NCBI RefSeq assembly: GCF_023806485.1
Contig: NZ_JAMSLR010000001.1
Span: forward strand, 496,001-560,000
DNA: 64,000 bases
Reading direction: 5' to 3'
Source of the DNA: Thermalbibacter longus
GTDB taxonomy: Bacteria; Chloroflexota; Chloroflexia; Thermomicrobiales; Thermomicrobiaceae
Part shown: positions 10,863 through 19,661 of the stretch, piece by piece
How the letters are laid out: each line of letters starts with the position of its first letter
How positions within the stretch are numbered: position 1 is the first letter of the stretch
Made by a program: the position numbers and the translations under genes
The notes under the pieces: generated by a model
The model's input: the letters and a program-made list of their open reading frames with translations, nothing else
What the model was told of the DNA's origin: nothing
The model's database searches: none

Positions 10863-11557
10863 CTAACTCTGCTCGAAGAGAATGCGGCGCTTCACCTGCT
10901 CGATCGCGTGCGTCACCTGGATGCCCCGAGGACACGCCTCTGTGCAGTTGAAGATGGTGCGGCACCGCCAGACACCGAATCGCTGGTTCAGGACGGCCAG
11001 CCGCTCCTCGGTCGCGCGGTCGCGCGAGTCGAAGAGGAAGCGATGACCATTGACGATAGCTGCCGGGCCGAGCCATTCAGTCGTCCAGAAGATCGGACAG
11101 GCGGAGGTACAACAGGCACAGAGGATACACTTACTGGTGTCTTCGATGAGCTCGCGCTCCTCCGGGGTTTGCAGGCGCTCGCGCGTGGGTGGAGGCTCAT
11201 CGTTGATCAGGTAGGGCATCACGGTCCGGTACTGGGCGAAGAACGGTTCCAGATCGACGACGAGGTCTTTGATTACCTTGAAGCCGAGCAATGGCTCAAT
11301 GGTGATCTTCGGCCCCAGATCCTTGATCAACACCTTGCACGCCAGGCGGTTGCGCCCGTTGATCCGCATGGCATCCGAGCCGCAGATGCCGTGGGCGCAG
11401 CTCCGCCGGTAGGTCAGTGAACCGTCCTGGTACCACTTGACCTGGTTCAGCGCGTCGAGTACCCGGTCGGTCGGCTCGACCTCAACCGTGTATTCCTGGT
11501 AATGCGGCTTGGTATCCGTTTCCGGATTAAAGCGCTGGATCCGCAGTGTAACCTGCA

Positions 11558-11558
<1 letters not shown>
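10863..11558 (-). CDS. sdhB: Succinate dehydrogenase iron-sulfur subunit
   Basis: A 231-residue SdhB/FrdB. The N-terminal ferredoxin domain has SCAHGICGSDAMRINGRNRLAC, the [2Fe-2S] ligands. The C-terminal domain has CILCACCTSACP for [4Fe-4S] and later CRTIFNCTEACPRGI for the [3Fe-4S] and remaining ligands. It passes electrons from the FAD of SdhA to quinone at the membrane anchor. Its ATG overlaps the SdhA stop (TGATG), showing tight coupling. It is the last gene of the operon sdhC-sdhD-sdhA-sdhB. Confidence 0.95.
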
Positions 11559-13285
<1,727 letters not shown>

Positions 13286-13288
13286 GGC

Positions 13289-13705
13289 TCAACTCCCCGC
13301 TGCCGTAGCCGCTGCCTGGAATGCATCCGGGTTGAAGGTCAGGACCGCGATCGAGCCGATGATCAAAAAGATTACCGCCGCGCTCCAGAGGATCGAATGG
13401 GCGAAGATGCGCCAGCCGCGGGAGCGCACGTAGTCGTCCACGGCGAGCCGCGCGCCGTTCAGGCCGTGAAGAAGCGCCAGGAAGAGCATCAGCCAGTCGA
13501 AGGCGCGCCAGAACGGTGAGCCCCAGCGATCGGCGACGAAGCGCCAATCGATCTCATCGACGGTATTGATCACGTGCATGATCACGACGTGCGTAATCGC
13601 GAGGAAGATCAGCAGCAACCCGCTGATCCGGAAGAAGTACCAGGAGTAGAGCTCGAATCCCCCCGCTGGCCGTTCGCGACCGACTCGCAGGCGTGGGGCG
13701 CTCAT
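13289..13705 (-). CDS. sdhD: Succinate dehydrogenase membrane anchor subunit
   Basis: A 138-residue protein with three transmembrane helices (starting about FFRISGLLLIFLAITHVVIMHV, then FDWLMLFLALLHGLNGARLAV, then ILWSAAVIFLIIGSIAVLTF). The pattern RISG and HVVIMHV/ALLHGLNGAR is typical of SdhD anchors, with histidines that can ligate heme b. The ATG at 13705 is preferred to a GTG three codons upstream because the GGGAGG sequence would run into that GTG. It lies between sdhC and sdhA. Confidence 0.88.
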   Translation of the reverse strand: MSAPRLRVGRERPAGGFELYSWYFFRISGLLLIFLAITHVVIMHVINTVDEIDWRFVADRWGSPFWRAFDWLMLFLALLHGLNGARLAVDDYVRSRGWRIFAHSILWSAAVIFLIIGSIAVLTFNPDAFQAAATAAGS

Positions 13706-13768
13706 CTGGCTCACCTCCCGATCGACTCCGACCCTCTTGGCGTCGCTGGCATCATCGCGCTCGACCTG

Positions 13769-14194
13769 TTACCGAACCATAGCCCGGATCATGAGGAATG
13801 CAGTTGGGATAAAGCCGGCGAGAAACACGACGATCACTCCGTAGAAGAGCTGGCGCTCGAACTGGTATGCCTTGTCCCAGAAGTCGATGAGGATGATGCG
13901 TACGCCATTGGCCGCATGATAGTACAGCCCTGCCACCAGGATAATCTCGCCGATCCGGAACACCGGATGGCGGTAGAGGAAGAGAAGCTCGTTGAACGTC
14001 TCGGGCCCGTAACCGACGAGAAAGATATCGACGATGTGCAGCAGCAAGAAGAGGAGCACACCCAGACCGGTAATCCGGTGCAAGGCCCAGGACAACATCC
14101 CCACCGGGGGACGATAACCCCGGTAGGCGGCGATCCCGCGGGTACCGGCAGTTACCGGACCGCGCTCCTGCGTTGGGACTGTACCGGTGGTCAC
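13769..14194 (-). CDS. sdhC: Succinate dehydrogenase cytochrome b556 subunit
   Basis: A 141-residue three-helix anchor. SWALHRITGLGVLLFLLLHIVDIFLVG carries the quinone/heme region signature (HRITG and the heme histidine in LLH), and GLYYHAANGVRIILIDF is the second conserved block of SdhC. It anchors complex II and binds heme and quinone. First gene of the operon, GTG start after GAGGAG. A promoter is proposed at 14276-14304. Confidence 0.92.
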   Translation of the reverse strand: MTTGTVPTQERGPVTAGTRGIAAYRGYRPPVGMLSWALHRITGLGVLLFLLLHIVDIFLVGYGPETFNELLFLYRHPVFRIGEIILVAGLYYHAANGVRIILIDFWDKAYQFERQLFYGVIVVFLAGFIPTAFLMIRAMVR

Positions 14195-14275
14195 GATTCG
14201 AACTCCTCGGTGCTGCTATCCAGTCGCCGACGGGCCGTCCAGGCGCAGCGCGAGGTCAGAGGGGCGACCGGGCTA

Positions 14276-14304
14276 AGTGTACGGGATTGGGAAAATTTGA
14301 ACAA
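14276..14304 (-). promoter_or_regulatory. Promoter of the sdhCDAB operon
   Basis: On the minus strand TTGTTC (14304-14299), a 17-base spacer rich in A/T and TACACT (14281-14276) precede sdhC, leaving a leader of about 75 bases. The AT-rich spacer stands out in this GC-rich region. Confidence 0.55.
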
Positions 14305-14464
14305 GCAGGCGAATTGCGCCGGATCATCACTTCCTCGAGCATCTTTTGCTTGCACGGCATAAATCGTCCACCAGTAACAGGATCAAGCGGGCCTCGAGCG
14401 AGTGGCCTTCGATCGGGTCGGTGCGAGGCCAACTCGGATCGATCGACCCCGCCGCGTTCGGGGC

Positions 14465-14516
14465 TTGACACTCGCCATGACGCGGCCTACTATGTAGGTA
14501 TCCTACATAGTAGGCC
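14465..14516 (+). promoter_or_regulatory. Promoter with perfect palindromic operator upstream of the protoglobin gene
   Basis: TTGACA (14465-14470), 17 bases, TACTAT (14488-14493) is close to the sigma70 consensus. Overlapping the -10 and the start point is a perfect inverted repeat: GGCCTACTATGTAGG (14484-14498), spacer TAT, CCTACATAGTAGGCC (14502-14516). A dimeric repressor bound there would block RNA polymerase. The MarR-type gene two positions downstream is the obvious candidate. The leader to ATG 14547 is only about 45 bases and includes AAAGGAG. Confidence 0.8.
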
Positions 14517-14546
14517 GGAGGCCGCTCGCGAGAAAGGAGCTTCGCC

Positions 14547-15134
14547 ATGGCAAGGGACCAGATCCCCGGCTACCGGTATGGTGATCCTGCTCTACCACGG
14601 GCGCCCTATAGCGTGCAGGATCTCGAACTTCTCAAGCAGGCGCTCCTCTTCTCCGAAGAGGACGCGCAGGCACTGCGTCGCGCTGGCCAGATCCTCGAGC
14701 CCTACGTGGAGGAGATCCTCGATGTGTGGTACGGCTTCGTGGGCAGCCATCCGTTTCTCCTCCGCTACTTCGCGAACGAGCAGGGGCCGGTACCTGCGTA
14801 CCTCGAGCGGGTGCGCAAGCGTTTCGGCCAATGGATCCTCGATACGTGTCGCGCCGAGTACGACCAGGCGTGGCTCGACTACCAGTACGAGATCGCTCGC
14901 CGTCATTTCGATCGCAAGAACCAGACTGACGAGGTCTCCGGCGCACCGCCGATCGTTCATTTCCGCTACGTCAACGCGCTCGTCTATCCGATCTACGCCA
15001 CGATCCGTCCCTTCCTCGAACGTGGTGAGTCCGAGCCGAGGAAGGTCGACGCGATGCATCAGGCCTGGCTGAAAGCGGTCCTGCTCCAGTCAACTCTCTG
15101 GTCCTATCCCTACCTGAAGGAGAGCGCGTTCTAG
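14547..15134 (+). CDS. Protoglobin family heme protein
   Basis: A 195-residue single-domain protoglobin, the usual length for the family first described from Methanosarcina acetivorans. The proximal-heme region reads WLDYQYEIARRHFDRKNQ, with His120 in the position of the F8 histidine. The aromatic pair Trp61-Tyr62 (VWYGFVGSHP) matches the distal-pocket Trp/Tyr of protoglobins. C-terminal helices HFRYVNALVYPIYATIRPFL and the closing WSYPYL are also typical. It should bind O2, CO or NO; whether it senses, scavenges or catalyses is unknown, and there is no output domain. It is controlled by a strong palindromic promoter and followed by a MarR-type regulator with a cysteine cluster. Confidence 0.85.
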   Translation: MARDQIPGYRYGDPALPRAPYSVQDLELLKQALLFSEEDAQALRRAGQILEPYVEEILDVWYGFVGSHPFLLRYFANEQGPVPAYLERVRKRFGQWILDTCRAEYDQAWLDYQYEIARRHFDRKNQTDEVSGAPPIVHFRYVNALVYPIYATIRPFLERGESEPRKVDAMHQAWLKAVLLQSTLWSYPYLKESAF

Positions 15135-15171
15135 AGTCTGCACAGCGTGCCGGCCGGCGGGCGCCGTAGAT

Positions 15172-15191
15172 GCAAAAGTTTTTGCTACAAT
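15172..15191 (+). promoter_or_regulatory. Palindrome and -10 box before the MarR-type gene
   Basis: GCAAAA (15172-15177) and TTTTGC (15180-15185) form an inverted repeat with a 2-base centre, directly followed by TACAAT (15186-15191), a good -10 box. No clear -35 is present, as expected for an activated or autoregulated promoter. The sequence differs from the palindrome at 14484-14516, so the two sites need not bind the same protein. Confidence 0.4.
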
Positions 15192-15270
15192 GCCGACTAC
15201 GGCGCTCGCTGCACGTTTCTTTTTCCAGGAGCAACCTTGCAGCGATCTAACAGCGAGGAGTCGGGAGAAG

Positions 15271-15894
15271 GTGACCATCTACGATCCACTCTACCGGCGC
15301 ACGTCGCGCGCGGCCCGGGTGGGAATGACGCTGTTACGGCTGAGCCAGGCAGTGAAGGTGATCACCGCGTCCGAGGTGTCCGGAACCGGGCTTACGCCGG
15401 TTCAGGCGCAGGCTCTGCTCTTCGTCCGCTACACTAAACCCTTCCTCGCTTCGGTGGGGCGGTTGGCCGAGGCGCTCGGCGTCACCCACGTGACTGCCAT
15501 TGGCGTGCTCGATGGGCTGGTGCGGCATGGCCTCGTTCAGAAGGCGCCGAGCCCGTTCGACAGGCGGGTAACACTTCTGCGTCTCACTCCGGCTGGCGAG
15601 GACGTTTGCCAGCGGCTGAGCCGATTCGGGCACACGCTCGAAGAGGCGCTCGCGCAGCTCGACGAGCTTGAGCTCGAAGCTCTGGAGCGCAGCCTGGGGG
15701 CTGTGGTCTGGAGCCTACGGGAGGCCGGCGTGCTTCAGGTGGCCGAGCCGTGCCGCGGCTGTATCCATTTCCAGGAGAACGCCGTCCCGGGCAGCCCCGA
15801 GCCACACCGCTGCAGGCTCATCCAGCGATACCTCAGCGAGGCTGACGCGCGGCTGGCTTGCCCCGATTTCACGCCGGCGCCTCTGCCTCGGTAA
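15271..15894 (+). CDS. MarR-family transcriptional regulator with C-terminal four-cysteine tail
   Basis: A 207-residue protein. Residues about 25-140 are a MarR winged helix: LTPVQAQALLFVRYT, then VGRLAEALGVTHVTAIGVLDGLVRHGLV (recognition helix) and the wing SPFDRRVTLLRLTPAGEDV. After the dimerisation helices comes an unusual tail with Cys161-x2-Cys164-x16-Cys181-x15-Cys197 (PCRGCIHF, HRCRLI, ACPDF), which looks like a metal or iron-sulfur site. GTG 15271 was chosen because GAGGAG and GGGAG precede it; a longer frame would begin with a non-family, Phe-rich segment. Next to the protoglobin and two palindromes, it probably represses one or both genes in response to a redox, gas or metal signal. 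Confidence 0.8.
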   Translation: MTIYDPLYRRTSRAARVGMTLLRLSQAVKVITASEVSGTGLTPVQAQALLFVRYTKPFLASVGRLAEALGVTHVTAIGVLDGLVRHGLVQKAPSPFDRRVTLLRLTPAGEDVCQRLSRFGHTLEEALAQLDELELEALERSLGAVVWSLREAGVLQVAEPCRGCIHFQENAVPGSPEPHRCRLIQRYLSEADARLACPDFTPAPLPR

Positions 15895-15974
15895 GCTGCG
15901 ACGAGCTCGTCGCGCTCCCCTACCATCCGAGCGCTGCCTTAACCGGTTGTCCTCCTGCCTCATCTCTGACCGGG

Positions 15975-16003
15975 TTGACAGGAGTGCCCGGCGCTCCTAC
16001 GAT
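15975..16003 (+). promoter_or_regulatory. Promoter of the dehydrogenase-complex-like operon
   Basis: TTGACA (15975-15980), 17-base spacer, TACGAT (15998-16003); the first gene of the operon starts 79 bases later at GTG 16083 after GGGGGGAGG. Confidence 0.6.
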
Positions 16004-16082
16004 GGAGACGATCCTCAGTGCAATGCCGATCAGCGGCTCTCCTGCGCGGGCAGGATCGGGTACCCGGAGGGGGGAGGCTGCA

Positions 16083-17504
16083 GTGGCGACTGTCGTTGTC
16101 ATGCCCAAGCTCGGCCTGACGATGACCGAGGGCAGGGTCGGCAAGTGGCTGAAGCAGCCGGGAGAGCCGGTGAGGCAGGGCGAACCGCTCCTCGAAGTCG
16201 AAACCGAGAAGATCACGATCGAGCTAGAGGCTCCGGAAACGGGCGTGCTGAAGCACGTGCTCGCGCCGGAGGGCGCGACGCTTCCGGTCGCGGCGCCGGT
16301 AGCGGTGGTAGCCGCGCCGGAGGAGGAGGTCGACCTCTCGCTTCTCACTTCTGGGGCGACCTTCGCGGCTGAGCCGGTCGCGGCGGAGGCCACTGCCATC
16401 TCGGCGCCGGCGTCGATCCCCACCGTTCCCTCGGGCGGAGCACAGGTGGTGGCCACGCCGGCGGCACGCAAGCTGGCTCGGGAGCACGGCATCGACCTGG
16501 CGCGGGTACGCGGCACCGGCCCAGGTGGGCGGATCACCTACGAGGATGTCGAGCGGGCGATCGCTGACCGGGGACAAGCGGCGGCCTTCCCGCGCGGCCA
16601 ACTCGTGACGTTCTACAGCGACGGCTTGCGGCTGGCCGGCGAGCTTTTCCTGCCCAGGGGCGAACCCAGGGCGGCACGCCTGCCCGGCGTGGTGCTGTGC
16701 ACGGGTATCCAGGGCGTCAAGGAGCTGGCAATGCCGCTCCTGGCGCAGGCACTGGCCGACGCCGGCTTTGCGGCCCTGACCTTCGACTATCGTGGCTTCG
16801 GGAGTAGCGAGGGCGCGCGCTGGCGACCGCTGCCGTACGAGCAGGTGCGCGATGTCCGAGCCGCTATCACCTACCTCTCCCGGCACCCGCTAGTCGATGG
16901 TCAGCGCGTCGGGTTGCTGGGCATGAGCTTCGGCGGGGCGCATGCGCTGGTGGCTGCGGCCGAGGACGAGCGCGCCCGCTGCGTAGTCGCGCTCGAGCCG
17001 GTCACCGACGGGCGACGGTGGCTGCGTAGCCTGCGCTCGGAGTGGGAGTGGCGGGTCTTCCTGGAGGAGCTGGCCCAGGATCGCTCCGCGAGGGTGGTTC
17101 ACGGCACGCCGCGGCGGGTATCGCTCTACGAGATCATGCCTCCGGATCCTGAATCCAGGGCTATCCTTCAGGAGGTGGCGCGGCAATTCCCGGAACTCGA
17201 CGTCCACCCCGAATTCCCGCTGGACTCAGCCGAAGCGTTCATAGAGTACCACCCGGAAGCGGTCGTGGACCGGATCGCTCCGCGCGCGGTGCTGTTCCTG
17301 CATGGCGAGGTGGACGTGCTGGTGTCACCGGAGGAGTCGATTCTGGCCGCGGCGCGTGCCGGCGAGCCGAAGCGGCTGGTGCTCCTGCCCGGGATGGGGC
17401 ATCTCAACTGGCTCAACCCCAAGCATCCGGTCTTCTCGCGGGTTGTGGCCGAGGTCACCGCCTGGTTGGAGCAGCATTTGGCCGCCTCGCAGCCCAGATC
17501 GTAG
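16083..17504 (+). CDS. Lipoyl-domain protein with E3-binding domain fused to an alpha/beta hydrolase (AcoC-like)
   Basis: A 473-residue three-domain protein. Residues 1-75 are a lipoyl domain with the lipoylated Lys43 in EVETEKITIE. Residues about 125-165 are a peripheral-subunit-binding domain (ATPAARKLAREHGIDLARVRGTGPGGRITYEDV). Residues about 180-470 are an alpha/beta hydrolase (dienelactone-hydrolase-like) with nucleophile Ser282 in GMSFGG, Asp411 in HGEVDVL and His440 in GMGHLN, where a normal E2 has a CoA acyltransferase domain. Pseudomonas AcoC also pairs a lipoyl domain with a hydrolase. It is followed by E1 alpha and beta and an AcoX-like gene, so it is the E2-like core of a 2-oxoacid or acetoin dehydrogenase system. 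The GTG start was chosen because the lipoyl domain begins there after GGGGAGG. Confidence 0.8.
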   Translation: MATVVVMPKLGLTMTEGRVGKWLKQPGEPVRQGEPLLEVETEKITIELEAPETGVLKHVLAPEGATLPVAAPVAVVAAPEEEVDLSLLTSGATFAAEPVAAEATAISAPASIPTVPSGGAQVVATPAARKLAREHGIDLARVRGTGPGGRITYEDVERAIADRGQAAAFPRGQLVTFYSDGLRLAGELFLPRGEPRAARLPGVVLCTGIQGVKELAMPLLAQALADAGFAALTFDYRGFGSSEGARWRPLPYEQVRDVRAAITYLSRHPLVDGQRVGLLGMSFGGAHALVAAAEDERARCVVALEPVTDGRRWLRSLRSEWEWRVFLEELAQDRSARVVHGTPRRVSLYEIMPPDPESRAILQEVARQFPELDVHPEFPLDSAEAFIEYHPEAVVDRIAPRAVLFLHGEVDVLVSPEESILAAARAGEPKRLVLLPGMGHLNWLNPKHPVFSRVVAEVTAWLEQHLAASQPRS

Positions 17505-17605
17505 GCAGTGCGTCGTTGACGTTCGGGTGGGTTCGATCGCGAAAGGAGGAGATCGTAGAGACGGGAGGTTAGAGATTCGGAGTGGCTGCTCTGGGAGGTG
17601 TCGCG

Positions 17606-18598
17606 ATGGACATCCCGAAAGAGAAGCTTCGCTGGATCTATGAGCGGATGGTCATGATTCGTCGGTTCGAGGACCGGGTGGCGCAGGAGTTCGCGGCGGG
17701 CAAGCTCCCTGGCTTCGTCCACCTGTATGCCGGTGAGGAGGCCATCGCGGTCGGGGTCTGCGCGCACTTGACTGACCGTGACTACATCACCAGCACGCAC
17801 CGCGGCCACGGGCACTGCATTGCCAAGGGCGTGGATGTCCGCAGCATGATGGCTGAGCTCTTCGGGCGGAGTACCGGCGCCTGCAAGGGTAAGGGCGGCT
17901 CCATGCACATCGCCGACGTCGACAAGGGCATGCTCGGGGCCAACGGGATCGTCGGGGGTGGCCCGCCGCTGGCCTGCGGGGCCGGACTGATGGCAAAGGT
18001 GAAGGGAACCGACCAGGTGGCGGCCTGCTTCTTCGGCGATGGCGCGGCCGAGCAAGGCACCACGCACGAGGCGATGAACCTGGCAGCAATCTGGAAACTG
18101 CCGGTCATCTTCGTGTGCGAGAACAACCTGTATGCCGAGTCAACGCCCTGGACATACCACTGCGCGGCCTCGGACATCGCGAGCCGGGCGGCGGCCTACG
18201 ACATGCCCGGCGTGCTGGTCGACGGTACCGATGTCTTCGCCGTCTACGAGGCGGCTGGCGAGGCGGTGGCCCGGGCACGCCGAGGAGAGGGGCCGAGCCT
18301 GTTGGAGTGCCGTGGATTCCGCTACTACGGGCACTTCCAGGGGGATGCAGTGACGTACCGCACGAGCGAAGAGGAAGAAGAGTGCCGGCGGCGCGACCCG
18401 ATCGAGCGCTTTCGGCAGACGGTGCTCTCGCAAGGGCTCCTGACCGAGGACGAGCTCAACGCGATCGACGAGTCGGTGGCCCGCGAGATCGAGGAGGCGG
18501 TGCGGGACGCCGAATCGAGCCCGATGCCGTCTCCAGCGGAGTGCCTGACCGACGTCTATGTCGACTACCCGGCGGCGCAGCTCGCCTTCCGTCACTGA
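17606..18598 (+). CDS. Thiamine-dependent dehydrogenase E1 component, alpha subunit (pyruvate/acetoin dehydrogenase)
   Basis: A 330-residue E1 alpha. It begins with RWIYERMVMIRRFEDRVAQEF, the standard E1 alpha helix, and has the TPP/Mg motif GDGAAEQGTTHEAMNLAAIWKLPVIFVCENN (GDG ... NN). The loop RTSEEEEECRRRDPIERF corresponds to the conserved region holding the phosphorylation loop of eukaryotic enzymes. With the beta subunit it decarboxylates pyruvate (or cleaves acetoin) and transfers the acetyl unit to the lipoyl arm. ATG 17606 follows GGGAGG with 7-base spacing. It lies 101 bases after the lipoyl/hydrolase gene. Confidence 0.92.
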   Translation: MDIPKEKLRWIYERMVMIRRFEDRVAQEFAAGKLPGFVHLYAGEEAIAVGVCAHLTDRDYITSTHRGHGHCIAKGVDVRSMMAELFGRSTGACKGKGGSMHIADVDKGMLGANGIVGGGPPLACGAGLMAKVKGTDQVAACFFGDGAAEQGTTHEAMNLAAIWKLPVIFVCENNLYAESTPWTYHCAASDIASRAAAYDMPGVLVDGTDVFAVYEAAGEAVARARRGEGPSLLECRGFRYYGHFQGDAVTYRTSEEEEECRRRDPIERFRQTVLSQGLLTEDELNAIDESVAREIEEAVRDAESSPMPSPAECLTDVYVDYPAAQLAFRH

Positions 18599-18641
18599 AC
18601 GGCGCCGGCCCGGTGGGAATGACGAGAGGAGGGAAGGCGAG

Positions 18642-19661
18642 GTGGTCGTCGCAACGCGCGTCATCAGCTACCGCGAGGCCCTGAACGAGGCGATCCGCCT
18701 GGAGACGCGCCGTGACCCCACAGTGGTGATCATGGGCGAGGACATCGCGGGTGGGGCCGGCATCGGGCATATCGAGAGCGTCGGCGCCTGGGGTGGCGTG
18801 CTGGGCGTCACTAAAAGCCTGGTCAGCGAGTTCGGGCGCCAGCGCGTGCTCGACACGCCGATCAGCGAGGCGGGCTTCATCGGCGCGGCGGTAGGGGCCG
18901 CGGTCACCGGGCTGAGACCGATCGCCGAGCTGATGTTCGTCGACTTCTTCGGTGTCTGCATGGATCAGATCTTCAACCAGGGCGCCAAGCTGCGCTACAT
19001 GTTCGGCGGCAAGGCCAAGGTGCCGATGGTTATCCGGACGATGATCGGGGCCGGCTTCGGGGCAGCCGGACAACATTCAGGTTGTCACTACTCGGTGTTC
19101 ACTCATATGCCCGGGCTGAAGACAGTGGCTCCGGCAACGCCTTACGATGCGAAGGGCCTGCTGATCGCAGCGATTCGGGATGACGACCCGGTCATCTTCT
19201 TCGAGCACAAGCTGCTCTACGACACCACCGGCGAAGTAGCGGAGGGGGAGTACGTCATCCCGCTGGGCAAGGCAGACGTCAAGCGCGAGGGCAGTGCCGT
19301 GACGGTCGTCGCCATCGCTCGCATGGTGCACGTGGCAATGGAGGCGGCGGCGAGGCTGGCCGGTGAGGGAATCGATGTCGAGGTGATCGACCTGCGCACG
19401 CTGTCGCCGCTCGATGAGGAGGCGATTCTGGAATCGCTGGCCAAGACGCGCCGGCTCGTGGTGGTCGACGAGGACAACCCGCGCTGCAGCGTCGCGGCCG
19501 ACATCGCCGCGCTGGCGGTGGACCAGGGCTTCGACTACCTGGATGCGCCGGTGAAAATGGTGACGGCGCCGCACACACCGGTGCCGTTCAGCCCGAGCAT
19601 GGAGCAGTTCTATATCCCGAGTCCGCAGCGCGTGATCGACGCCATCCGGGAGGTCGTCTAA
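18642..19661 (+). CDS. Thiamine-dependent dehydrogenase E1 component, beta subunit
   Basis: A 339-residue E1 beta. The N-terminal ISYREALNEAIRLETRRDPTVVIMGEDIAGG, the central DTPISEAGFIGAAVGAAVTGLRPIAELMF and the C-terminal EVIDLRTLSPLDEEAILESLAKTRRLVVVDED are the conserved blocks of the family. It completes the alpha2beta2 E1 with TPP bound at the interface. GTG 18642 is preceded by GAGGAGGG and starts the conserved core; a start further upstream would add a basic non-conserved extension. The closing TCACTACTCGVF-like sequence (GCHYSVFTHMPGLKT) is also typical. Its stop overlaps the start of the AcoX-like gene. Confidence 0.92.
   Translation: MVVATRVISYREALNEAIRLETRRDPTVVIMGEDIAGGAGIGHIESVGAWGGVLGVTKSLVSEFGRQRVLDTPISEAGFIGAAVGAAVTGLRPIAELMFVDFFGVCMDQIFNQGAKLRYMFGGKAKVPMVIRTMIGAGFGAAGQHSGCHYSVFTHMPGLKTVAPATPYDAKGLLIAAIRDDDPVIFFEHKLLYDTTGEVAEGEYVIPLGKADVKREGSAVTVVAIARMVHVAMEAAARLAGEGIDVEVIDLRTLSPLDEEAILESLAKTRRLVVVDEDNPRCSVAADIAALAVDQGFDYLDAPVKMVTAPHTPVPFSPSMEQFYIPSPQRVIDAIREVV

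Follow-up and report, generated by a model that had tools for sequence, protein, structure and literature searches.

In Escherichia coli, NsrR is reported to be a nitric oxide (NO)-sensitive repressor of hmp, which encodes a globin, of ytfE, which encodes a hemerythrin-like protein, and of ygbA (PMC1274295). In Corynebacterium, the NO-responsive repressor ArnR acts on the globin gene hmp and on nar; it consists of a MarR/ArsR-like winged helix-turn-helix followed by a C-terminal region, and three conserved cysteines are needed for its [4Fe-4S] cluster (PMC12343034). A third relevant regulator is CioR of Chromobacterium violaceum, a MarR-family repressor that shares one operon with a cytochrome bd aiding against NO (PMC11837568). 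The unit compared with these systems lies in a 64,000-nucleotide stretch of the Thermalbibacter longus genome (Thermomicrobiaceae; contig NZ_JAMSLR010000001.1, positions 496,001 to 560,000 of the forward strand), hereafter the window: a protoglobin gene, whose promoter is covered by a perfect palindrome, is followed by the gene of a MarR-family regulator with a tail of four cysteines (Cys4).

The likeness to NsrR lies in the arrangement: genes for a globin, a hemerythrin-type protein and YgbA are preceded by a palindrome at which the repressor acts (PMC1274295), and the partners of Cys4 MarR proteins are of the same kinds. NsrR, however, belongs to the Rrf2 family, whereas the window protein is a MarR with four tail cysteines and has no Rrf2 match in Pfam at E ≤ 1. 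The NsrR operator is gATGyAT-N5-ATrCATc (PMC1274295); the window operator, ATGTAGGTATCCTACAT, is of the TAGG-N3-CCTA type and does not fit that pattern. ArnR has its cysteines at positions 179, 193 and 223 (x13, x29), while the window protein has the spacings x2, x16 and x15; ArnR is also almost exclusive to Actinobacteria, and its targets are a flavohaemoglobin and a nitrate reductase (PMC12343034). It nevertheless sets a precedent: an NO sensor with a [4Fe-4S] cluster, repressing a globin gene, can be built on a MarR-like winged helix with C-terminal cysteines. CioR is of the GbsR type; the one cysteine mentioned for it is C52, and among the stressors tested cyanide was the only inducer (PMC11837568). 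By analogy, the predicted switch logic of the window unit is NsrR- or ArnR-like, built on another protein family. An earlier, sequence-only reading of the stretch had held that no system with this combination was described, and no publication on a Cys4-MarR/protoglobin system is present among the literature matches listed, which are mainly open-access.

The features of the unit are the following:

14465..14470, + strand: TTGACA, the -35 hexamer for protoglobin (promoter scan and relatives)
14488..14493, + strand: -10 hexamer TACTAT, after a spacer of 17 nt (promoter scan and relatives)
14483..14517, no strand: predicted operator, a perfect 16-3-16 palindrome covering the -10 (repeat search and comparison)
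14533..14539, + strand: ribosome-binding site AAAGGAG (sequence)
14547..15134, + strand: protoglobin gene, 195 aa (PF11563, structure relative and residues)
15271..15894, + strand: gene of the MarR-family regulator, 207 aa, start GTG (Pfam, relatives and fold)
15751..15861, + strand: Cys4 tail, Cys161-x2-Cys164-x16-Cys181-x15-Cys197 (invariant in the alignment)

From sequence comparison, it is strongly inferred that the Cys-tailed MarR protein represses the protoglobin gene through this palindrome. The promoter is of the sigma-70 type and agrees with the consensus at 10 of 12 positions; two promoter-like sites were found in 14200-16100 (mean of 0.1 in shuffles), and TTGACA-17-TACTAT is the only one upstream of protoglobin. 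The arms of the palindrome, 14483-14498 and 14502-14517, enclose an inner core ATGTAGG-TAT-CCTACAT (14492-14508) with TAGG-N3-CCTA at 14495-14505. At 16 bp, they form the longest perfect inverted repeat (loop ≤ 10) of the window, the runner-up having 11-bp arms. In the 12 family genomes with a protoglobin at least 70% identical, the -35 read by eye is TTGACA in 11 cases and TTGACG in one, the -10 is TATCAT-, TATTAT- or TACTAT-like, and the core ATGT-N9-ACAT over it is kept, again by eye, exactly in 10 and with one change in two. Since the palindrome covers the -10, binding of the MarR protein is expected to repress. The exact sequence ATGTNGGNNNCCNACAT occurs a single time in its own genome, at the protoglobin. 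A wider regulon was rejected: with at most one mismatch, matches of ATGTNGGNNNCCNACAT in 21 genomes were about as many as those of the reversed control in most. The hexamers and spacing named in the sequence-only reading were recovered by the promoter scan; the palindrome, given there as a perfect 15-3-15 over the -10, is indeed perfect and in that place but has arms of 16-3-16. The same reading's 195-residue protoglobin with His120 at F8 agrees with the PF11563 match and the residue check, and the C-x2-C-x16-C-x15-C ending that it saw in the MarR protein was found identically at Cys161, 164, 181 and 197.

The two genes are paired far beyond this species. The survey of close relatives comprised 61 genomes (the own one and 60 others), with a protoglobin in 15 and a MarR at least 57% identical in 13. 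Both genes are adjacent in nine of these 13, own genome included; they lie about 7 kb apart in G008 and G014 and on different contigs in G016. In G005, the close MarR is located elsewhere and a second Cys4 MarR, 34% identical, stands directly upstream of the protoglobin, a pair that carries TACTTAGGAGTTCTAAGTA. Beyond the genus, the fetched stretches share the pair only, and the surroundings differ. The best 80 of 114 protoglobin loci from the GTDB collection were then scanned with a hidden Markov model (HMM) of 14 MarR proteins. A direct MarR neighbour is present at 45 of them, at a gap of 0 to 425 bp (at 22 loci it lies upstream and at 11 downstream, in both cases on the strand of the protoglobin; at 11 it is divergent, and at one both share an open frame); this is a lower bound, because several loci counted as having no MarR end near the protoglobin (e.g., L114 and L139). 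All 44 full-length neighbours have the four cysteines (L098, where a contig end cuts the MarR, was excluded from this count), and the same HMM detects tail-less MarR proteins at other loci.

In a tree of 65 rows, the protoglobin-linked MarR proteins come from 12 NCBI phyla, with other partner types interspersed (phylum names as in the records, some of which are metagenome-assembled genomes). Among 300 Chloroflexota genomes, 24 have the Cys4 tail, 51 a protoglobin (PF11563) and 22 both (Fisher p 2.8e-17, kinship ignored). Ten out of ten chosen genomes of diverse taxa have one Cys4-tail gene each, beside protoglobin. The sequence-only reading had proposed a search for co-occurrence and would have given up its case if orthologues had not conserved the cysteines; the pairing at more than half of the loci, the 22 of 24 tail-bearing Chloroflexota genomes with both genes and the 44 intact tails speak in its favour on both points.

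Some loci show other arrangements. At the beta-proteobacterial protoglobins L109, L112, L116, L119, L126, L136 and L157, an AraC gene with Cupin_6 lies divergently upstream (L126 by Pfam, the other six by similar sequence), and HxlR regulators adjoin protoglobin at L091, L139 and L145. In an Acidobacteria genome (L097:4272-5582), MarR and protoglobin share one open frame, with a ribosome-binding site before the protoglobin ATG; because protoglobin retains this site, the fusion may be a lost stop and is given little weight.

The operator follows the regulator. In the 45 pair promoters, TAGG-N3-CCTA (operator A, ≤1 mismatch) is found in 28 and TATCGA-N-TCGATA (operator B, ≤2) in eight others, compared with 1/35 and 0/35 for protoglobin promoters without MarR (36/45 vs. 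1/35, p 3.6e-13); the background per 220 bp is 0.023 and 0.005, respectively, and the count is partly circular, because the motifs were read off these same loci. The recognition helix [KR]G[TN]xSQ accompanies operator B in 8/8 cases and operator A in 0/29, and L085 has a class B helix with no recognised operator. A further set consisted of 15 Acidobacteriota Cys4-MarR loci, 14 of them without protoglobin beside the MarR (L208 and L218, with an unresolved MarR open reading frame (ORF), were left out). A site is present in the preset promoter stretch in seven of the 15 and anywhere in the 4-7.5 kb locus in 13: TTAGGANTCCTAA with at most one mismatch in 12 loci, and in L221 two copies of TATCGA-N-TCGATA without mismatch. 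When the letters of the palindrome were permuted, 60 such controls gave a mean of 0.15 loci and at most 2/15. Several sites outside the preset stretch front an operon or a divergent partner.

In 13 of 14 Chloroflexota pairs, at most 60 bp separate the site from where the first gene begins (some of these starts are estimates; the loci overlap partly with genomes of the 80-locus set), and where other phyla have a marR-pgb operon, the operator stands ahead of both genes. Exact TTAGGANTCCTAA has 13 sites in 12 of 25 chosen genomes, 12 of these sites at the MarR locus; its reversed control occurs eight times anywhere in the same genomes. Because the operator tracks the MarR protein across phyla and also tracks its recognition helix, the palindrome is taken to be the operator of this MarR. 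The sole exact TTAGGANTCCTAA off a MarR locus (L222:1501, G500:C27:26583) precedes a ComEA-like helix-hairpin-helix ORF, and tandem operators stand before protoglobin in two Chloroflexota genomes (L193:3840-3872 in G321 and L194:4184-4219 in G262).

The presumed target is a full protoglobin. It matches PF11563 with E 4e-33, and its closest solved relative is the protoglobin of Methanosarcina acetivorans (2veb, E 7e-68). The domain, the N-terminal extension, His F8, Trp B9, Tyr B10 and Phe E11 are all found, the residues present being His120 (F8), Trp61, Tyr62, Phe93 and Cys101. Its haem-pocket residues, with roles as given in PMC3680402, are shared with the M. acetivorans protein. As of 2013, what protoglobin does biologically was described as still unknown (PMC3680402); in vitro, the M. 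acetivorans protoglobin acts as a nitrite reductase and a peroxynitrite isomerase (PMC4020757).

The regulator starts, as in its relatives, at GTG 15271 and not at ATG 15190, and its stop codon is 15892-15894. Its MarR domain exceeds the curated cut-offs (MarR_2, 39.9 bits vs. 27; MarR, 25.5 bits vs. 24.6). In the AlphaFold2 (AF2) model, residues ~11-154 superimpose on MarR structures with Z 13.0-14.9, rmsd (root-mean-square deviation) 2.0-6.5 and 109-154 aligned residues among the 50 matches listed. No NCBIfam family is over its cut-off (best 26 bits vs. 240).

The four tail cysteines are invariant in 41 aligned members. In 27 tails, no Pfam family is matched by more than one, PF01355 (HIPIP) is absent from the Pfam matches at E ≤ 1, and the best PDB sequence match of the tail, to a short part of a ferritin, had E 0.14; with neither a common Pfam family nor a credible PDB sequence match, identity with a known domain was rejected. 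The tail is well defined in the full AF2 model, with block means of 91-95 for pLDDT (predicted local distance difference test), and reaches pLDDT 78.5 and pTM (predicted template modelling score) 0.58 when modelled alone. A fold search with the whole model gave matches covering the MarR part only. With the tail alone, Foldseek returned no significant match (best E 0.35), and 6 of the 11 matches listed are high-potential iron-sulfur proteins (HiPIPs) or HiPIP-like. In a structure comparison, nine of 16 chains reach Z ≥ 2, all of them HiPIPs or HiPIP-like [4Fe-4S] proteins; the latter are small subunits, belonging to benzylsuccinate synthase and to a glycyl radical enzyme (2y8n). Five HiPIPs compared have the pattern C-x2-C-x(8-14)-C-x(12-13)-C, and the last spacing of the window tail is 15; the HiPIP of C. 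vinosum has C-x2-C-x16-C-x13-C. The modelled tail fold thus weakly resembles HiPIP-type [4Fe-4S] domains, and an Fe-S site is favoured, though unproven.

Which signal might reach such a site is suggested by the other partners of the family. For the Acidobacteriota, 17 of 20 tail loci were fetched (G353 is L105; the weak matches G413 and G510 were left out). The Cys4 MarR is found with cytochrome P460 at three loci (L206/L228, L207/L227 and L208), with a DUF438-hemerythrin-PAS protein at L214 and L217, with YgbA_NO at L212 and L220, with DUF2024 behind a 77-aa ORF without Pfam match at L216 (by Pfam) and L213 (by similar sequence), and with a secreted-looking protein, also without Pfam match, at L209 and L221. 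At L219, protoglobin is 1.3 kb away; other genes are the neighbours at L205, L210, L211 and L215, and L218 is unresolved. Therefore, the Cys4-MarR family is wider than protoglobin, and most of its recognisable partners bind gases or are induced by NO. The secreted-looking protein (~275 aa; no Pfam match in three tested) stands beside Cys4 MarRs without protoglobin (L209:3747-4592, L221:3896-4702, L032:2121-2948 and L029-L031, in the latter upstream of the MarR) and is possibly a new gas-response protein.

Copper nitrite reductase is a source of NO. With kinship ignored, NirK is over the cut-off in 11/24 Cys4 genomes (own included) vs. 24/276 without the tail; in protoglobin genomes without the tail, it is in 2/29. 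NO is the best guess for the signal because the partners resemble the NsrR regulon, because of the ArnR precedent and NirK, and because of the nitrite and peroxynitrite chemistry of protoglobin; O2 or peroxide would be the alternatives.

The following mechanism would account for these observations. The MarR protein would be a dedicated local repressor of protoglobin, and its dimer on the palindrome over the -10 would exclude RNA polymerase, as the position, conservation and co-variation of the site suggest. The C-terminal four-cysteine domain may bind a metal, in the likeliest case as a HiPIP-like [4Fe-4S] cluster, which NO or a related reactive nitrogen species could damage or nitrosylate, and the repressor would then release the promoter. 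Protoglobin, able to bind NO and O2, would be made and could trap or convert the gas, as the partner genes hint. Taken as a whole, a dedicated repressor whose Cys4 metal site, probably Fe-S, meets NO and thereby frees protoglobin is judged probable, with considerable room for doubt. The unit itself, a conserved cross-phylum set of repressor, operator and target with an uncharacterised Cys4 domain, is real and reaches further than the sequence-only reading had supposed. That reading had the Cys tail control repression of a haem protein: repression is backed by the comparison, and a tail with a metal or Fe-S site that exerts gas or redox control is plausible but unproven. Somewhat short of an even chance is given to the broader proposal of an undescribed NO-sensing MarR family with a HiPIP-like [4Fe-4S] tail and single targets (protoglobin, cytochrome P460, hemerythrin or YgbA) in at least a dozen phyla, which would do NsrR's job in Thermomicrobia, Chloroflexota, Acidobacteriota and nitrite oxidisers and give protoglobin a role.

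Several observations weigh against this interpretation. No Cys4 MarR adjoins 35 of the 80 protoglobin loci, some of which have AraC/Cupin_6 or HxlR genes instead, and in 247 Acidobacteriota genomes the tail (20) and PF11563 (20) coincide in three (p 0.21). No operator is recognised in 9/45 pairs, at L210 and L211 or in G272, nor is there a site within 8.5 kb in two Chloroflexota genomes with the tail and without protoglobin; 6/13 Acidobacteriota sites are outside the preset stretch. The three genomes with an unlinked MarR, G008, G014 and G016, have a changed core that reads ATGTCG...CGACAT and lacks the inner TAGG...CCTA. As for the tail, 5 of the 11 Foldseek matches listed are unrelated to HiPIP. 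The structural similarity is weak (Z 2.3-2.8 with HiPIPs and 3.7 with 2y8n_B; 43-50 aligned residues, rmsd 2.4-4.0). The four tail cysteines do align with those of one HiPIP. Profile comparison gives a probability of 2% and does not bear out HiPIP kinship: the score, 14.1, lies within the range of 60 cysteine-keeping shuffles (mean 10.0, sd 2.1, max 16.6), and for this reason kinship is not claimed.

The same repressor and operator could also work with the cysteines forming a structural zinc knuckle; the signal would then be a small molecule or an oxidant that the MarR core itself perceives. Four invariant cysteines can bind Zn, so this explains them equally well, to the detriment of a cluster, and the high pLDDT of the tail blocks in the full model suits it too. 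The AdcR Zn-MarR profile matches 14/41 members, which the shared winged helix alone would explain, and among the low-ranked Foldseek matches unrelated to HiPIP are a few zinc proteins. The partner genes, however, point to NO/O2, and the nine chains with Z ≥ 2 are Fe-S proteins; a zinc knuckle is regarded as rather unlikely. MarR proteins can sense oxidants, and the cysteines might instead be a thiol (disulfide) switch of the kind found in OhrR/MarR-type sensors, responding to O2, peroxide or electrophiles. The HxlR-type regulators beside protoglobin at the three loci named above, a type known for thiol sensing, would fit such a switch, but a switch of one or two cysteines would account less well than a metal site for the invariance of all four in 41 diverse rows, which leaves this option improbable.

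The tight pairing and the single MarR-protoglobin frame of L097 could mean that protoglobin is itself part of the sensor and relays the gas signal, the two proteins together making up a globin-coupled regulator. The fused frame, in which protoglobin keeps its own ribosome-binding site, may however have lost a stop, and protoglobin is missing next to many Cys4 MarRs that have the same operator, so that this arrangement is very unlikely. That the palindrome belongs to another regulator, or to chance, hardly deserves credit: the link between MarR and palindrome does come from comparison, but the repeat is the longest perfect one of the window and accompanies the MarR and its recognition helix across phyla. 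Repression by the Cys-tailed MarR, with NO as the probable releasing signal, is retained as the preferred explanation.

The stretch in front of the MarR gene has two further features:

15172..15185, no strand: second, short palindrome GCAAAAGTTTTTGC, 6-2-6 (repeat search)
15186..15191, + strand: likely own -10 of the MarR gene, TGC-TACAAT (by eye, relatives)

The GCAAAAGTTTTTGC palindrome is enclosed by imperfect 13-nt arms (15157-15169/15197-15209); the whole element consists of GC-rich arms (GGGCGCCG...CGGCGC) around GCAAA-N4-TTTGC and the TACAAT box. It is present in G001 and G002 and absent from G003. TACAAT or TATACT boxes recur, by eye, before the MarR gene in relatives with an intergenic gap. 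The second palindrome announced by the sequence-only reading before the MarR gene therefore exists, but it is short and unlike the first; being dissimilar and only partly kept within the genus, it gains no support as an operator of the same MarR. Autoregulation was likewise rejected for this genus, as no TAGG palindrome precedes the MarR gene of the window, G008, G014 or G016, and the one-mismatch TAGG...CTA of G002 is too little palindromic to count.

Genes read by eye as succinate dehydrogenase-like (10863-14194, minus strand) diverge from protoglobin; in the stretches compared, this neighbourhood is not shared outside the genus. On the other side, at 15858-19661, a lipoyl/peripheral-binding/alpha-beta-hydrolase-like ORF is followed by genes of E1-alpha and E1-beta type (by eye), resembling a dehydrogenase cluster for acetoin or a 2-oxoacid, with a possible promoter, TTGACA-17-TACGAT, at 15975-16003.

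With a conserved dedicated repressor whose operator is defined and whose sensor is likely a metal site, the role of protoglobin becomes a question of the signal that releases the repressor. Should the tail carry an Fe-S cluster that reacts with NO, then a family of NO regulators has escaped notice despite being widespread, and TAGG-N3-CCTA or TATCGA-N-TCGATA could be used to track down new NO-response genes, for example that of the secreted partner.

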